A stretch of DNA of 29,088 bases from a virus, in IMG/VR virus record IMGVR_UViG_3300048596_000027, positions 1-29,088 of that record; one strand, given 5' to 3'. Under the pieces are notes generated by a model. The model ran no database searches. It saw nothing but the letters and a program-made list of their open reading frames with translations, and had not been told where the DNA came from. Made by a program: the position numbers and the translations under genes. Positions 2,478 to 28,417 of the stretch are shown in pieces; position 1 is the first letter of the stretch, and every line of letters starts with the position of its first letter.

Positions 2478-2858
2478 ATGGTTGCCGGACGAAGCAACGA
2501 GGCACGCACGCAGGTCATCGGCACGACGAACGCCTCCGCGGCGATCACCGGCGCGGCCGGGACCTTCAACGAGGAGGACGCCGGGCGGGCCATCACGGGC
2601 ACCGGGATCCCCGCTGCGGCGACGATCCTGTCCGTGACGTCGGACGTCGCGGCGACGCTGTCGGCGAACGCCACCGCGACCGGTTCGCCGACGGCGACGT
2701 TCGTCGCGGCCACGGGTACCGCGTACGGGTTCACCGGGTGGTCCCCGGAGACCGACGCGGAGTCCGAGACCTACACCATCGCCGGCGGGGCGTCCGCGTC
2801 GTCGCCGGACCGCATCACGAACGCCTACACGGGCGTCTCCCAGCGATCGAGGAGCTGA
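2478..2858 (+). CDS. Small Ala/Thr/Gly-rich capsid-associated protein
   Basis: This 126-residue protein starts at ATG 2478 behind an excellent site (AGGAGGT, 2468-2474), which suggests high expression. It is rich in Ala, Thr, Ser and Gly. Its middle part has a beta-type pattern in which residues of the form GTGIPAAATILSV are followed by a Thr/Val/Ala stretch ending ATATGS, similar to repeated beta modules in phage surface proteins. It sits directly after the capsid gene, where head decoration or head fibre proteins are usual. I do not recognise a specific family, so decoration is an inference from position, size and expression signal. It has no cysteines and no membrane segment. Confidence 0.6.
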   Translation: MVAGRSNEARTQVIGTTNASAAITGAAGTFNEEDAGRAITGTGIPAAATILSVTSDVAATLSANATATGSPTATFVAATGTAYGFTGWSPETDAESETYTIAGGASASSPDRITNAYTGVSQRSRS

Positions 2859-2860
2859 CC

Positions 2861-3175
2861 ATGGCGACACGCAAGACGCAGCCGGCCCCGGACGGCGATG
2901 CCGCCACGCAGGACGTCGACCCGGCCGCGAAGGCGAAGTCCGACGCGGAGGCGGCGGACTCCACCGCCGCCGAGGAGGTCCAGGCGGCGGTGAACGCGGA
3001 GACCGAGCAGGGTTTCCGCGGCCTCGAGGTCGACCCGACACCGAACGAGAACTACACGGTGGCCGGGCAGGCCGCGGGGGCGCCGACCCCCGAGACCGAC
3101 CCGGGCGCCGCGGAGGCCGCACGTAAGGCCGCCGTGGAGACGTCGGCCCGGGCGTCCGGGGTCACCGAGCTCTGA
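2861..3175 (+). CDS. Small acidic disordered protein of the head operon
   Basis: This 104-residue protein starts at ATG 2861 with GAGGAG about six bases upstream, two bases after the previous stop. Composition is dominated by Ala, Glu, Asp, Thr and Pro (repeated DAEAADSTAAEE-like runs), so it is probably largely disordered. A short patch at residues 50-70 (GFRGLEVDPTPNENYTVAG) is the only segment that looks foldable; phrases of this kind occur in small proteins found next to actinophage capsid genes. I do not recognise a function. Its place after capsid and before the connectors suggests a virion or assembly accessory role. It is followed by a strong hairpin. Confidence 0.6.
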   Translation: MATRKTQPAPDGDAATQDVDPAAKAKSDAEAADSTAAEEVQAAVNAETEQGFRGLEVDPTPNENYTVAGQAAGAPTPETDPGAAEAARKAAVETSARASGVTEL

Positions 3176-3181
3176 CCCTGC

Positions 3182-3230
3182 GGCACCCCCTCGACCCGTC
3201 CACCCAACATCGACCCGTCGAGGGGGTGCC
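3182..3230 (+). terminator. Strong hairpin between capsid block and connector genes
   Basis: GGCACCCCCTCGAC (3182-3195) is perfectly complementary to GTCGAGGGGGTGCC (3217-3230): 14 base pairs, mostly G-C, with a 21-base loop. No U-tract follows. The GAGGGGG in the 3' arm (3220-3226) is also the only good ribosome binding site for the ATG at 3236. The structure may therefore reduce read-through and also mask translation of the next gene. Either role is an inference. Confidence 0.6.
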
Positions 3231-3235
3231 CTGCC

Positions 3236-3820
3236 ATGGATCCACTTGCCGACGTGGCCGAGCTGCGTGCCTGGCTGCAGGACCCGAACTTCGACGGCGG
3301 GACCGCCGCGGTCGTCCTCGCCGCGGCCAGCGGGACGGTCCGCGGTCAGACCGGGCAGGACTTCAGCCTCGTCACCGGTGACACCGTCGTCCTCGACGGA
3401 AGCGAGGACGACTGGCTGTACCTGCCGCAGCGCCCGGTCACCGCCGTGTCGGCCGTCGACATCAACGGGGCCGCGCTGCCCGTCGGCGGGTGGACCCTGT
3501 CGGGGTCGCGGATCTACCGCTACAACGGCTGGAACCACGCCATGGTGCTCGCGTCGTCGAACTCCTACGGCCGGGCCCCGACCCTGATCACCATCACCTA
3601 CGACCACGGGTACGCGACCATCCCCGACGACGTGAAGGCCGCGACCCTCGCGGTCGCCGCGGACATCGCGGGCAACCCCGCCGGGCTGATCGCCGAGACG
3701 ATCGACGACTACACGTGGCGCCGCTCCGAGACCCCCGAGGGCACCGCGACGCAGATGCTCCTCGCGGCCGTGGTCCGCCGCTACGGCGTCGGGGCCCGCT
3801 CGGTGAGGCTCCACCGGTGA
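3236..3820 (+). CDS. Head-tail adaptor (connector) protein
   Basis: This 194-residue protein begins MDPLADVAELRAWL and contains VVLAAASGTVRGQTGQDFSLVTGD, then LPQRPVTAVSAVDING and ITITYDHGYATIPDDVKAATLAVAAD. This is the alpha-helical plus beta pattern of the HK97 gp6 / SPP1 gp15 adaptor family, whose ring docks under the portal. The phrase TYDHGYxxIPDDVKAA is especially typical of this family in actinophages. It is the first of four overlapping neck genes: its TGA overlaps the GTG of the next gene. Its ribosome binding site lies in the 3' arm of the 3182-3230 hairpin. Confidence 0.8.
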   Translation: MDPLADVAELRAWLQDPNFDGGTAAVVLAAASGTVRGQTGQDFSLVTGDTVVLDGSEDDWLYLPQRPVTAVSAVDINGAALPVGGWTLSGSRIYRYNGWNHAMVLASSNSYGRAPTLITITYDHGYATIPDDVKAATLAVAADIAGNPAGLIAETIDDYTWRRSETPEGTATQMLLAAVVRRYGVGARSVRLHR

Positions 3821-4221
3821 GCGCCACCGCCGCGGTCCGCCGCGGGCAGGTCGCCGCCGTCCGGCTGATGGTCGACACGTGCGTGATCCGCCGCCGCGGC
3901 CCGGAGGTCACCAACCCCGACACCGGGGTCGTCACCCCCACCTGGACGCAGATCTACAACGGGCCCTGCAAGTTGCAGGAGTCCGCCGGGTTCGGCGCCG
4001 CCGGGACGGAACCGCAGGCCGGGGAGCACAAGTTCGTGCTGCAGGGGTGGCGGCTGCACCTGCCCATCGCCGAGACCGGGCCGACCGACGGGGACGTCGC
4101 GGAGGTCACCACGGCCGGCGTCGACCCGGACCTCGTCGGGCGCAGGTACCGCCTCGGTGGGGACTTCGCGAAGACGTTCGCGACGGCCCGGCGGATCCAG
4201 GTCGAGGAGGTCGTGTCGTGA
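3817..4221 (+). CDS. Head-closure/stopper protein, DUF6093-like
   Basis: This 134-residue protein starts at GTG 3817, overlapping the previous TGA by four bases, with GGTGAGG upstream. An internal ATG at 3868 is an alternative. The region VDTCVIRRRGPEVTNPDTGVVTPTW followed by a short Tyr-Asn-Gly-Pro-Cys-Lys segment is the signature of small beta-barrel head-closure proteins (DUF6093 / gp16-like stoppers) found second in the connector cassette of actinophage siphoviruses. The C-terminal half (DVAEVTTAGVDPDLVGRRYRL ... ATARRIQVEEV) fits the same barrel. It should bind below the adaptor ring and close the DNA-filled head. Confidence 0.72.
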   Translation: MSATAAVRRGQVAAVRLMVDTCVIRRRGPEVTNPDTGVVTPTWTQIYNGPCKLQESAGFGAAGTEPQAGEHKFVLQGWRLHLPIAETGPTDGDVAEVTTAGVDPDLVGRRYRLGGDFAKTFATARRIQVEEVVS

Positions 4222-4598
4222 GCACCCTCGACGTCACCGACCTCCACGCCCTGACCCGCGACCTCGGCAACGCGGCGCAGCACATCGAACGCGACGTCAC
4301 CGCCGTGGTGTCCCGCGGGGCACTGAACATCAAGCGGGACGCGGTCCGCCTGATCAGCGGCCACCCCCGATCGAAGCACTACCCGCTGACCATCGGCTAC
4401 GACATCACCACCGACTCCGACGGGATCCTCGCGGAGATCGGCCCCGACAAGGACCGCCGCCAAGGCGGCCTCGGCAACATCCTCGAGTACGGCACGTCGA
4501 AGAACGCGCCGCTGCCGCACCTCGGGCCGGCGCTCCTCGCGGAGGAGCCGCGGTTCGCGGCCGCGATGGAGACCGTCGCCTCGGACGCGCTGCGGTGA
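4218..4598 (+). CDS. Tail component, HK97 gp10-like
   Basis: This 126-residue protein starts at GTG 4218, overlapping the previous stop by four bases. It has an N-terminal amphipathic region, a VVSRGALNIKRDAVRLISGHPRSKHYPLTI core and an EYGTSKNAPLPHLGPAL segment. The pattern in which a helix with KxxA is followed by a Gly-Thr-[ST]-[KR]-xAPxPhhxPAL motif is the recognised signature of the HK97 gp10 family, thought to sit at the head-tail junction during tail joining. Position third in the four-gene neck cassette supports the call. Confidence 0.8.
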   Translation: MSTLDVTDLHALTRDLGNAAQHIERDVTAVVSRGALNIKRDAVRLISGHPRSKHYPLTIGYDITTDSDGILAEIGPDKDRRQGGLGNILEYGTSKNAPLPHLGPALLAEEPRFAAAMETVASDALR

Positions 4599-7520: not shown

Positions 7521-10500
7521 GACCAAGGTCGTCCTGCGGGCGGACGTAGCCGGTTACATCTCGGCGATGCGTGCGGCGGAGGCCGCGTCGCGGCAGTTCG
7601 CCGACCGGGCCATCGCGGACGCGGCGCGGGTCGCGCAGGCGCAGCGGACCTCCGCGGCCCCGACGCCAGGCGCCGGTGGCACCCCGTCGACACCGGGAGC
7701 ACCGCGGGTCAACGCGTCCGGGCGCACCGCGGCGCAGGAGGCCGAGGCGCGGCGTCTCGTCACGGAGGAACGCCGCCGCCAGGCCGAGGTCGCGAACGCC
7801 GCCCGGGCCGCCGCAGCGGAGCAGGAACGCCTCGCCCGGGACGCGCAGCGCCGCGCCCAGGAGGTCGCCCGCGCCGAGGAGGAGGCCGCCCGGCGCCGCA
7901 AGGCCGCCATGCAGGACGTCGGCACCGCCGCGGCCGCGTCCGGTGCCCTCGTCGCCGCAGGGTTCCTGATGTCGGCGAAGGCCGCGATCCAGTGGGAATC
8001 CGCCTGGGCCGGGGTCACCAAGACCGTGAACGGCACCAACGCGGAGATGGCCGACCTCGAGGACCAACTCCGCGGGATGGCCAAGACCCTCCCGGTGTCC
8101 TCCACCGAGATCGCGAAGGTCGCGGAGAACGCCGGGCAGCTCGGTATCCAGCGGGAGAACATCGCCGGGTTCACGAAGGTGATGATCGACCTCGGGGTGT
8201 CGACGAACCTGTCCGCCGACGAGGCGTCCACCTCGATCGCGCAGATGATGAACGTGATGCGAACCGCCCCGGCGCACGTCGACCGCCTCGGCGCGACCCT
8301 CGTCGCGCTCGGCAACGCGGGGGCCTCCACCGAGGCCGAGATCATGCATATGGCGCAGCGGCTCAGCGGCGCCGGCGCGCTGATCAACGCCTCCGAGTCC
8401 GACGTCCTCGCGATGGCCAACGCGATGGCGTCGGTGGGTATCGAGGCGGAGCTCGGCGGCGGGTCGATGTCGCGGACCATGACGAAGATCTACAGCGCCG
8501 TGCAGCAGGGCGGCGCCGCCCTGACCGGGTTCTCGAAGGTCGCCGGGATGACGGCGAACGAATTCGCCACCGCGTTCGAGTCGGACCCGATCCGCGCCGT
8601 CGACGCGTTCGTCGGCGGGTTGGGCCGGATCAAGGACTCCGGCGGGAACGTCGTCGCGGCCCTCGCCGACGTGAAGATCAAGGGCACCCAGGACCTGCAG
8701 GTGCTGCTGCGCCTCGCGGGCGCGGGGGACCTGCTGACCCAGTCCCTCGACCTCGGCGCGAAGGCGTGGCAGGACAACACGGCGCTGCTGAACGAGGCGA
8801 ACAAGCGGTACGACACCGTTGCGTCGAAGCTGCAGATCGCGAAGAACAACCTGAACGACCTCGCGATCCAGATCGGTGACGTCCTCCTGCCGATCATCGC
8901 GAAGTTCGCCGACGGTGCCTCGGGGATCATCGACTTCTTCGAGCGGCTCCCCGGCCCGGCCCGCGAGGTCGCCGTCGTCCTCGGGGCCATCGCCGGCGGG
9001 GTAGGACTTCTCGGTGGGGCGCTGCTGCTGACCCTCCCGCGGATCGCCGCGACCCGGGCCGCCCTCGCGACCCTCGGCGCGACCGCGATGTGGACCTCCA
9101 TCCGCATCAACTTCCGCCTCGCGACCAACCTCATCGGCGGGCCGTGGGTCGCCGCCCTCGGCATCGCCGCCCTCGCCGTCGGTGCCCTGTTCCTCGCCCA
9201 CCGCAAGGGCAAGCCCGACATCTCCGACCTCACCCAGGCGATCCAGGCCGACACCGGCGCGCTCGGGGACAACACCAAGGCCACCATGGCGAACCGGCTG
9301 GAGAAGTCCGGGATCCTCCTCACCGCGGAACGCCTCAAGGTCGGCCTCGCCGACGTCACCCAGGCCGCCATGGGCAACGCCGACGCCCTGGATCGGGTGA
9401 ACGCCGCGACGGCGGCTGCGGAGGCGCCTGCCAGGGCGCAGATCGCAGCACTCCGCGAGACCATGGCGCACACCACCGATCTCGGCACCCAGCGGCGCCA
9501 GCAGTTCGACCTGCAGCATCTCCTCACCACCGGCGCCATCGCCGACACCCAGGAGCTGTCGAAGGCGATCGGGTCGCAGGCCGGGATGTCCGCCGACGCG
9601 GTCGACGCCGCGAAACGCGTCGCGGACGCCACCGCGAACCAAGGCCTCAGCGCGGCCGAGGCCGCCGCGAAGGCCGAGCGGCTCAACCAGGCCATGGGCG
9701 GGGTCCCCGGCACCGCCGGGCCCGCCACGGACGGCGCGAAGAAGCTCGGCGGAACCCTCAAGGAAACCGCCGCGCAGGCCGGGCTGACGACCGAGCAGCT
9801 CGACAAGCTCGTGTCCGCCGTCGACGCCCTCGTCTCCTCCGAGTTCGAGGGCGACCGCGCCACCATCGACTACAAGGACAAGCTCGCCGCCCTCGCGACC
9901 CAGGTCAAGGAGGGCACCACCTCACTGGACCTGAACCGCAAGTCCGGCCGGGAGAACGCCTCAGCCGTGATGGACCTCGTCCAGGCCACCGGCAAGCAGA
10001 TCGACGCGGTCATCCGCAACGGTGGCGCCCAGTCCGACGTCGAGGCCAAGACGAAGGCCGCGAAGAAGTCACTCGAGGACCAGCTCACCACGCTCGGATT
10101 CAGCAAGGACGCCGTCAAGCGGTACACAGACGCGCTCGACGACATCCCCGCGCGGACGACGACCGAGCTCACCGTCACCGACGCGACCGCGCTTAAGGAA
10201 GCCGGGTTCTTCGGGCAGACCCTGGCGGCGATGAAGCGGGCCATCGAACGCGACCCCGTGAAGTTCGCCGTCGACTCCGCCGCGGCCCGCGCGGACACGA
10301 AGTCGTTCCTCGCGTTCATGCGCCAAGGCCTCGCCGACATCCCCGACGAGTCCGTGAAGGTCGGCATCGGGGTGTTCACCTCCGTGGACACCGCGAAGAA
10401 GCAGACCGGGTTCTCCATCGCGCTGAACAAGGCCGCGGGCGGCCCGATCTCCGGGCCCGGTGGGCCGCGCGACGACGCGATCCCGGCGTGGCTCTCCGAC

Positions 10501-20370: not shown

Positions 20371-20973
20371 TCAGGACTTCGGCGGGGACTCCACAACCGC
20401 AGGCTGCACGGGCGCCGGTTTCTGCGGCGGAGTCGCGATCCTGCGGTCCGTCTCCACCCACTTACCGTTCACGCACCCGTACGTGATCTGGTACTCACCC
20501 GCCCGTGCGGGCACACCCCTCGTCTGCCCCGGCTGACACTCGGGGGCCGGCGCTGGGGGTGTCGTGGGCTTGGCCACAGGCTCCTCCTCCACGGCGACGA
20601 CCGGGGCCACGACTGGCGCCGGCTTCGGCGCGGTCGTGTTCTCCGCGCGGTCCGCGGCGGTCTCCGCCCGGTCGGCCTCGGTGGCCGCACGGTCCGCGGC
20701 CTCGGACGCAGTCTCCCCGGAACCGCCGCCCGATGTCACGACCGGCGCAGGGTGGACGACCTCGACGGTCGGAGCCGGATCCTCGTCCACCACGACGGGC
20801 GGCGTGCTCGGTTCCGACGTGGCCTCGTCGGCGACCTGATGCAACGTCACCGGGCTCGGCGCGACCGGAGCCGCCTGGCCGCTCATCACCAACGCACCAC
20901 CGACGGCGCCGCCCATGATGGCGACGACGAGGACACCCGCGGCGGTGAACCCACCCACGCTCGGGCGCCGCAT
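20371..20973 (-). CDS. Exported, membrane-anchored Ala/Pro-rich protein
   Basis: This 200-residue minus-strand protein starts at 20973, sharing a base with the upstream gene's stop (TGATG). Residues about 8-30 (GGFTAAGVLVVAIMGGAVGGALVM) form an anchor or signal. A long low-complexity stretch follows, rich in Ala, Pro, Glu, Thr and Val, with repeated AADRAATEADRAETAADRAE. A small conserved-looking end has two Cys (ECQPGQTRGVPARAGEYQITYGCVNGKWVETD), likely disulfide-bonded outside the membrane. It is co-transcribed with the next minus-strand membrane protein. A role in lysogenic conversion or superinfection exclusion is inferred from position and topology. Confidence 0.62.
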   Translation of the reverse strand: MRRPSVGGFTAAGVLVVAIMGGAVGGALVMSGQAAPVAPSPVTLHQVADEATSEPSTPPVVVDEDPAPTVEVVHPAPVVTSGGGSGETASEAADRAATEADRAETAADRAENTTAPKPAPVVAPVVAVEEEPVAKPTTPPAPAPECQPGQTRGVPARAGEYQITYGCVNGKWVETDRRIATPPQKPAPVQPAVVESPPKS

Positions 20974-27323: not shown

Positions 27324-28417
27324 CGCCGCGCCAGCCGCGGGACACCTCCCTCGGCTGCGCCGAATGCGGGTGGCGGGGGAAGACCACGACCGCCCGCCTC
27401 GCCGCGAAGGCCCTAGCGGGCCACTCCTGCGAGAAGGCCCGCCGCGACACCGCCGCAACGGGCCGCGGCCGCACCCGGGACGCCGCGATCGACCGCACCC
27501 CCAAGCCGTGCGCGCACCCGAGGGCCCGCCACGAGCACGGGCACCGCAACACCTACACCCTCGACCACTGCCGGTGCCTGCCCTGCTGCGCCGCGATGTC
27601 CGAATACAACGAATGGTTGGCCCGGCAGGTCGCGTACGGGCGGGATCGCCTCGTCGACGCCGAACCGGTCCGCGCGCACGTCCGAGAGCTCGCGACCTCC
27701 GGGATGGGATGGCGCCAGATCGCCCGGGAGGCCGGGGTCGCCCCGCAGACCGTGTCGCGGCTCCTCTTCGGCGGCGGCGGTCAGGGCGGCCGGGCGGTGC
27801 ACCGCGAACGGCTCCGCCCGCACCACGCGCAGGCGATCCTGGCCGTCCGCCCCGGCCGGCACGCACCGTCCGCGGTCGTGGACCAGACGGGCACGACCCG
27901 CCGGTTGCAGGCCCTCGTCGCCGCGGGGTGGCCGGCGGCACGGCTCGCGACGGAGCTGGGCATGACCGCGCAGAACTTCTCCCCGCTCGTCCACGGTGCA
28001 CGCGGGGTGAAGGCCTCCACCTGGGTCGCGGTGAAGGAGCTGTACGACCGGCTGTGGGACGAATCCCCGGCGGTCGACACCCCCGCGCGGATGGGCGGCG
28101 TCGCGCGGGCCCGCCGGTACGCCGCGGACCGCGGGTGGGCACCCCCGCAGGCGTGGGACGACGACACCATCGACAACCCCGCCGCGCGGCCGAACCGTGC
28201 CGGGGGGCACGACGAGGCAACGGTCCTCGCGTGGCTCGCCGACAACGCGGAGCCCCTGGCGGCGACCCGCGCGGACCGCGTCGAGGTGGTGCGCCGGCTG
28301 ATGGACGACGGGTTCGTGACGATGCGCCAGCTGCAGGCGCTCACCGGCCTTGACGAGGTCGCGTTGCTGTCCCTGCGGATCTCCGTGTACCGCGCCCGTG
28401 AGGGGGCGGTCGCGTGA
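27320..28417 (+). CDS. Zinc and multi-HTH DNA-binding protein
   Basis: This 365-residue protein starts at GTG 27320 (GTGA overlap). A first zinc motif is C13-x2-C16 ... H35-x-C37 (CAECGWRG ... GHSC). A second has HEHGHRNTYTLDHCRCLPCCAAMSEY (C84, C86, C89, C90), a form known from actinophage DNA-binding proteins. HTH-like units lie at about residues 118-150 (GMGWRQIAREAGVAPQTVSRLL), about 190-222 (WPAARLATELGMTAQNFSPLVHG) and about 320-357 (FVTMRQLQALTGLDEVALLSLR). Two tandem HTH units plus zinc suit a regulator, perhaps of late genes, or a site-specific DNA binder. Confidence 0.68.
   Translation: MTPRQPRDTSLGCAECGWRGKTTTARLAAKALAGHSCEKARRDTAATGRGRTRDAAIDRTPKPCAHPRARHEHGHRNTYTLDHCRCLPCCAAMSEYNEWLARQVAYGRDRLVDAEPVRAHVRELATSGMGWRQIAREAGVAPQTVSRLLFGGGGQGGRAVHRERLRPHHAQAILAVRPGRHAPSAVVDQTGTTRRLQALVAAGWPAARLATELGMTAQNFSPLVHGARGVKASTWVAVKELYDRLWDESPAVDTPARMGGVARARRYAADRGWAPPQAWDDDTIDNPAARPNRAGGHDEATVLAWLADNAEPLAATRADRVEVVRRLMDDGFVTMRQLQALTGLDEVALLSLRISVYRAREGAVA

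Follow-up and report, generated by a model that had tools for sequence, protein, structure and literature searches.

Siphovirus virions generally contain about a dozen copies of the connector or adaptor protein against hundreds of capsid proteins, and tailed phages make both, at these very different levels, from one late mRNA in a way that is for the most part unexplained. The locus described here raises the question of whether a hairpin standing between the two sets of genes contributes to this ratio. The window, that is, the whole stretch of 29,088 nucleotides that was analysed (positions 1 to 29,088 of IMG/VR virus record IMGVR_UViG_3300048596_000027; 72% G+C), comes from the structural region of a soil siphovirus of the actinobacterial type. 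Its genes are arranged in the order protease, scaffold, major capsid, a small probable decoration gene, ORF5, head–tail adaptor, and further connector and tail genes. The genes on the two sides of the boundary are as follows.

1527–2468, + strand: major capsid protein (MCP) gene, of the abundant block (phrog_10, E 1.5e-46)
2478–2858, + strand: small gene 3′ of the major capsid gene, probably encoding a capsid decoration protein (position as gp7, DNA similarity)
2861–3175, + strand: ORF5, the gene that ends the capsid-side block (TGA stop at 3173–3175; 60 homologous loci in viral contigs)
3236–3820, + strand: head–tail adaptor, first connector gene (phrog_442, E 1.3e-30; tblastn to annotated adaptors)

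The small gene corresponds in place, and is similar in DNA, to gp7, the ‘capsid decoration protein’ of Arthrobacter phages Karkharias and ChuckDuck. The adaptor, whose start at ATG 3236 agrees with the starts of its homologues, is 30–40% identical to its relatives, none of which is close. The gap of 60 nt separating it from ORF5 is nearly filled by a single hairpin, made up of the following parts.

3182–3195, + strand: 5′ arm, GGCACCCCCTCGAC
3196–3216, + strand: loop of 21 nt, containing a weak inner 3-bp stem (fold)
3217–3230, + strand: 3′ arm, GTCGAGGGGGTGCC, which includes the Shine–Dalgarno (SD) sequence
3222–3228, + strand: SD core GGGGGTG, paired to CACCCCC of the 5′ arm (anti-SD duplex, P(unpaired))

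The stem (3182–3195/3217–3230) is a perfect 14-bp helix with a predicted hairpin energy of −33.1 kcal/mol, its foot lying 6 nt from the ORF5 stop at 3175. The first-pass annotation had placed such a stem between the capsid block and the connector genes, and the interval from this stop to ATG 3236 is where it was found. No other perfect inverted repeat of the window (loop ≤40) is as long. A non-functional inverted repeat arising by chance in GC-rich DNA is a very improbable explanation: the G+C content of 72% would favour it, and a perfect 14-bp stem was reached in 1 of 60 Markov-1 simulated 29-kb windows, but the chance of such a stem in a given 60-nt stretch is about 5 in 100,000 (P ~5e-5), and this one occupies a gap in which relatives too have strong structures. 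An Rfam covariance-model search of positions 2800–3700 returned no match up to E=1. Another hairpin, AGGTCTCAGGAATGGGACCT, is present at 1487–1511, between the scaffold gene and the start of the capsid gene.

On balance, the hairpin is probably a cis-acting translational brake on the head–tail adaptor gene, tying the adaptor to ribosomes that arrive from the capsid block. The 3′ arm holds the only good ribosome-binding site (RBS) for ATG 3236, as had been claimed from the letters alone: the best anti-SD match upstream of this start is GAGGGGGTG (duplex −14.4 kcal/mol), the core of which, at 3222–3228, pairs with CACCUCC through one G·U and is 7 nt from the ATG. This SD is wholly within the 3′ arm, with a P(unpaired) of ~0 in free mRNA according to the computed fold, and thus lies inside a stable helix, the feature that defines RBS-sequestering hairpins. 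Opening the adaptor start site costs 28.9 kcal/mol (window sequence, ±60-nt context), against about 5–19 kcal/mol for the other gene starts of the window that were examined, gene 4218 excepted. The start of this gene (4218–4598, the third connector gene) is also strongly occluded, at 28.2 kcal/mol (relatives’ median, 10.1), and occlusion is therefore not unique to the adaptor in the window, which counts against a brake. The GGAGGTCG of gene 4218 appears to complement a GACCTCC near the beginning of the coding sequence of the same gene.

A brake of this kind would work as follows. The 14-bp stem would hide the only SD of the adaptor in the polycistronic late mRNA, and free 30S subunits would rarely initiate there; ribosomes finishing ORF5 at 3175 would reach the foot of the stem and weaken it, and adaptor initiation would amount to a small fraction of capsid-block translation. 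We infer that the stem forms in vivo, lowers adaptor synthesis and is opened by upstream ribosomes. Such an arrangement fits a protein needed in about a dozen copies when capsid proteins number in the hundreds. When a terminating ribosome was modelled with a footprint extending 12 nt beyond the ORF5 stop, the opening cost of the adaptor start fell from 28.9 to 14.7 kcal/mol; the cost left with this ribosome in place, about 13–15 kcal/mol, is still high and counts against the proposed mechanism.

That ORF5 ends (3175) near the occluding structure (stem from 3182) is the arrangement expected for translational coupling. In rpmI–rplT a sequestered RBS is coupled across +52 nt, and MS2 coat–lysis is another sequestered, coupled RBS (PMC12548453). 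The present locus resembles both in that the downstream RBS is structured and near the upstream stop (60 nt here), and differs from them in having a single perfect 14-bp local stem and in that its coupling is proposed. RBS-sequestering helices are also found in phage T4, in genes e, soc, 49 and I-TevI (PMC3014915), where, as here, the SD and/or the start is held in an intramolecular helix that blocks the 30S subunit. In T4, however, transcription from a late promoter relieves the block by leaving out the 5′ arm, whereas a scan for the sigma-70 consensus saw no such promoter here, and the gene affected here encodes a structural connector and comes straight after the capsid block. A temporal switch of this classic T4 design (PMC3014915), with a second promoter between the arms and the adaptor translated only from late transcripts without the 5′ arm, is very improbable: the region contains no promoter-like match, the search covering the sigma-70 consensus, and in an RNA beginning at 3210 the SD remains paired to the coding sequence (CDS; P unpaired ~0.15). 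The earlier claim that no example of the design had been described holds for its exact form in the literature searched, which was open-access and is thus weak evidence, but not for its kind, since RBS-sequestering hairpins are well known in phages (PMC3014915).

The main rival to a translational brake is an attenuator or terminator acting on the transcript, either U-poor or helped by Rho/NusG, which would end or thin the mRNA after the capsid block and leave fewer connector transcripts, the overlap with the SD being a by-product of the crowded 60-nt gap. Strong U-poor hairpins are indeed common at the capsid/connector boundary of actinophages, occurring in Bridgettevirus (after gp7), in Kostyavirus, phiSASD1, Kromp, CliffHanger, SunnyD and Stromboli (after the MCP gene), and directly 5′ of the first connector gene in Juanyo, Pajaza and Schubert. 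Similar hairpins also follow the major tail protein gene in several relatives and stand between convergent operons in complete genomes (SunnyD 9529–9570, Schubert 20894–20929, Judy 28135–28177), which makes it plausible that hairpins of this class act in a terminator-like way. The hairpin of the window shares with those of Schubert, Juanyo, Pajaza, Bridgettevirus and Kostyavirus the place in the operon, the stem length and the absence of a U-tract. Attenuation at this site is nevertheless unlikely, if the strongest of the alternatives. No T-run follows the stem, the sequence 3′ of it being CTGCCATG / CTGCCATGG, so the U-tract that follows the GC stem of an intrinsic terminator is missing, and the hairpin is absent among the terminator-like sites of the window. 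To go by the title of a 2014 study by Czyz et al. (cited in PMC4351075), a U-tract is reportedly required by the mycobacterial polymerase. An essential adaptor gene lies directly downstream, and members of the boundary class keep the SD outside the stem: in the cultured phages examined it follows the stem on the 3′ side, whereas here it is in the 3′ arm. Attenuation and masking could also act together. In cultured relatives with boundary hairpins the adaptor sites are mostly accessible, which counts against a brake, and three other loci (L038, L096 and L210) likewise have upstream hairpins and a free SD. In AbbeyMikolon (L255), four dispersed intergenic hairpins, at 8743, 12847, 29499 and 36283, have a common stem, CACCACCTC, and resemble a repeated terminator cassette.

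The exact upstream stem appears so far, from the sequences compared, to be unique to IMGVR_UViG_3300048596_000027. An exact-hairpin search in viral contigs found no other contig with it; direct homology searches gave one relative for the adaptor of the window and zero for gene 3817, and a genome-contig search gave one distant, irrelevant match. The collections searched thus contain no homologue of the stem in which a compensatory change could be demonstrated, and this counts against a brake.

Occlusion of the same start was found in a different form in relatives, a set made up of uncultured sequences related to the capsid gene (MCP 52–78% identity) and of further adaptor relatives. In most of the uncultured relatives the adaptor SD is complementary to adaptor codons about 9–14, forming an SD–CDS hairpin in L024 (5674–5731), L105 (2488–2538), L014 (5645–5700), L028, L035, L095 and others, with perfect pairing over 17 bp in L024, 13 bp in L105 and L137, and 12 bp in L014. 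These hairpins occlude the SD of the same gene as in the window, but hold it in the 5′ arm, whereas in the window the SD pairs with sequence that precedes it. The two arms change together: GACCTC in the CDS is accompanied mostly by GAGGTC in the leader, GATCTC by GAGATC or GGATC, and GAGCTC usually by GAGC or GGGCTC, and in many uncultured actinophage contigs the leader has changed to match most of the D-to-E amino-acid substitutions encoded by the CDS arm.

Pairing of each SD with its own CDS was better than with swapped partners in 100,000 of 100,000 permutations (n=26), and a second clade gave p ~0.008 in the same comparison. In most loci it was also better than the pairing obtained when the CDS was redrawn with synonymous codons (mean z −1.6 and −1.9). 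Among 12 sequences sharing one register, to which the pair count was limited because MAFFT misaligned UTR arms with differing spacers, 86% of SD–CDS cells are paired, against 38–56% in slid registers, a percentage favoured by the choice of sequences by register, so that the comparison with swapped partners is fairer; the same 12 sequences have 7 cells with compensating changes, against 2.7 when shuffled. No own-versus-swapped signal was found at the scaffold, MCP or stopper starts, and that at ORF5 was marginal (p 0.04 and 0.13). GC-rich DNA alone as the cause of the pairing was rejected on the strength of the controls with swapped partners, synonymous redraws and other genes. The adaptor SD–CDS pairing predicted from these sequences thus covaries in relatives.

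The start of the adaptor also stands out from other genes of the relatives in the predicted cost of opening, the median being 18.6 kcal/mol (n=34), against 10.1 for scaffold, 12.2 for MCP, 10.7 for ORF5 and 12.1 kcal/mol for stopper (paired Wilcoxon, 2e-6, 1e-4, 0.002 and 0.024, respectively). It did not differ significantly from the tail terminator in a small sample (n=6), which counts against a brake particular to the adaptor, and the comparison with the neck gene is also small (n=7).

With the upstream stem of the window and the SD–CDS hairpins of relatives taken together, the adaptor start site is predicted to be occluded repeatedly within the group, in at least two unrelated geometries, and a lower adaptor dose would be expected to result from this. 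The window itself is without the relatives’ hairpin, its SD–CDS pairing being no better than in synonymous redraws (z +0.8), a result that counts against a brake; a functional tie between the two geometries would therefore be one of analogy. Of the two routes by which the first-pass annotation had suggested that adaptor synthesis might be lowered, masking gains from the 28.9 kcal/mol opening cost and from the covarying SD–CDS hairpin of relatives, and attenuation loses ground in part, given the missing U-tract and the free SD at cultured boundary hairpins; regulation of the amount of adaptor would follow from the former. The relatives bear as well on a further reading, in which the hairpin blocks 3′–5′ exonuclease or is an RNase III site, so that the capsid mRNA has a longer half-life and is split from the connector mRNA. 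Its position right after the capsid block and the similar hairpins that relatives have after other abundant genes (MCP, MTP) agree with such a processing or stability element, which is still improbable, as it leaves unexplained both the placement of the SD in the arm and the SD–CDS hairpins.

Returning to translational control, it is possible, although we put this forward only tentatively, that a large group of actinobacterial siphoviruses has a conserved control point in the first head–tail connector gene. Selection may be maintaining the occlusion of the RBS of this gene by means of hairpins that are unrelated in structure and interchangeable, SD–CDS in most lineages and an SD–upstream boundary stem here, which would set the dose of connector relative to capsid. 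A conserved, covarying hairpin at the adaptor start, with a different hairpin in its place in this phage, would provide a concrete and testable mechanism. The hairpin signal is strongest in uncultured viruses, and the cultured Streptomyces phage Dubu has a similar SD–CDS stem, of 11 bp, which makes a laboratory test possible.

Six of the relatives (L028, L029, L030, L032, L035 and L041) have a predicted strong structure ~12–15 nt past the end of the MCP gene (about −29 to −33 kcal/mol per 60-nt stretch, with an 11-bp helix) and combine it with an SD–CDS adaptor hairpin. The idea that boundary and SD–CDS hairpins are mutually exclusive was rejected, several contigs of the GTG-start clade scoring for both a post-MCP hairpin and an occluded adaptor SD. 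In two further loci, L212 (2169 onward) and L234 (2178 onward), the gene 3′ of ORF5 looks unlike the phrog_442 adaptor, and its SD or start again pairs with its own coding sequence, over 10 and 11 bp.
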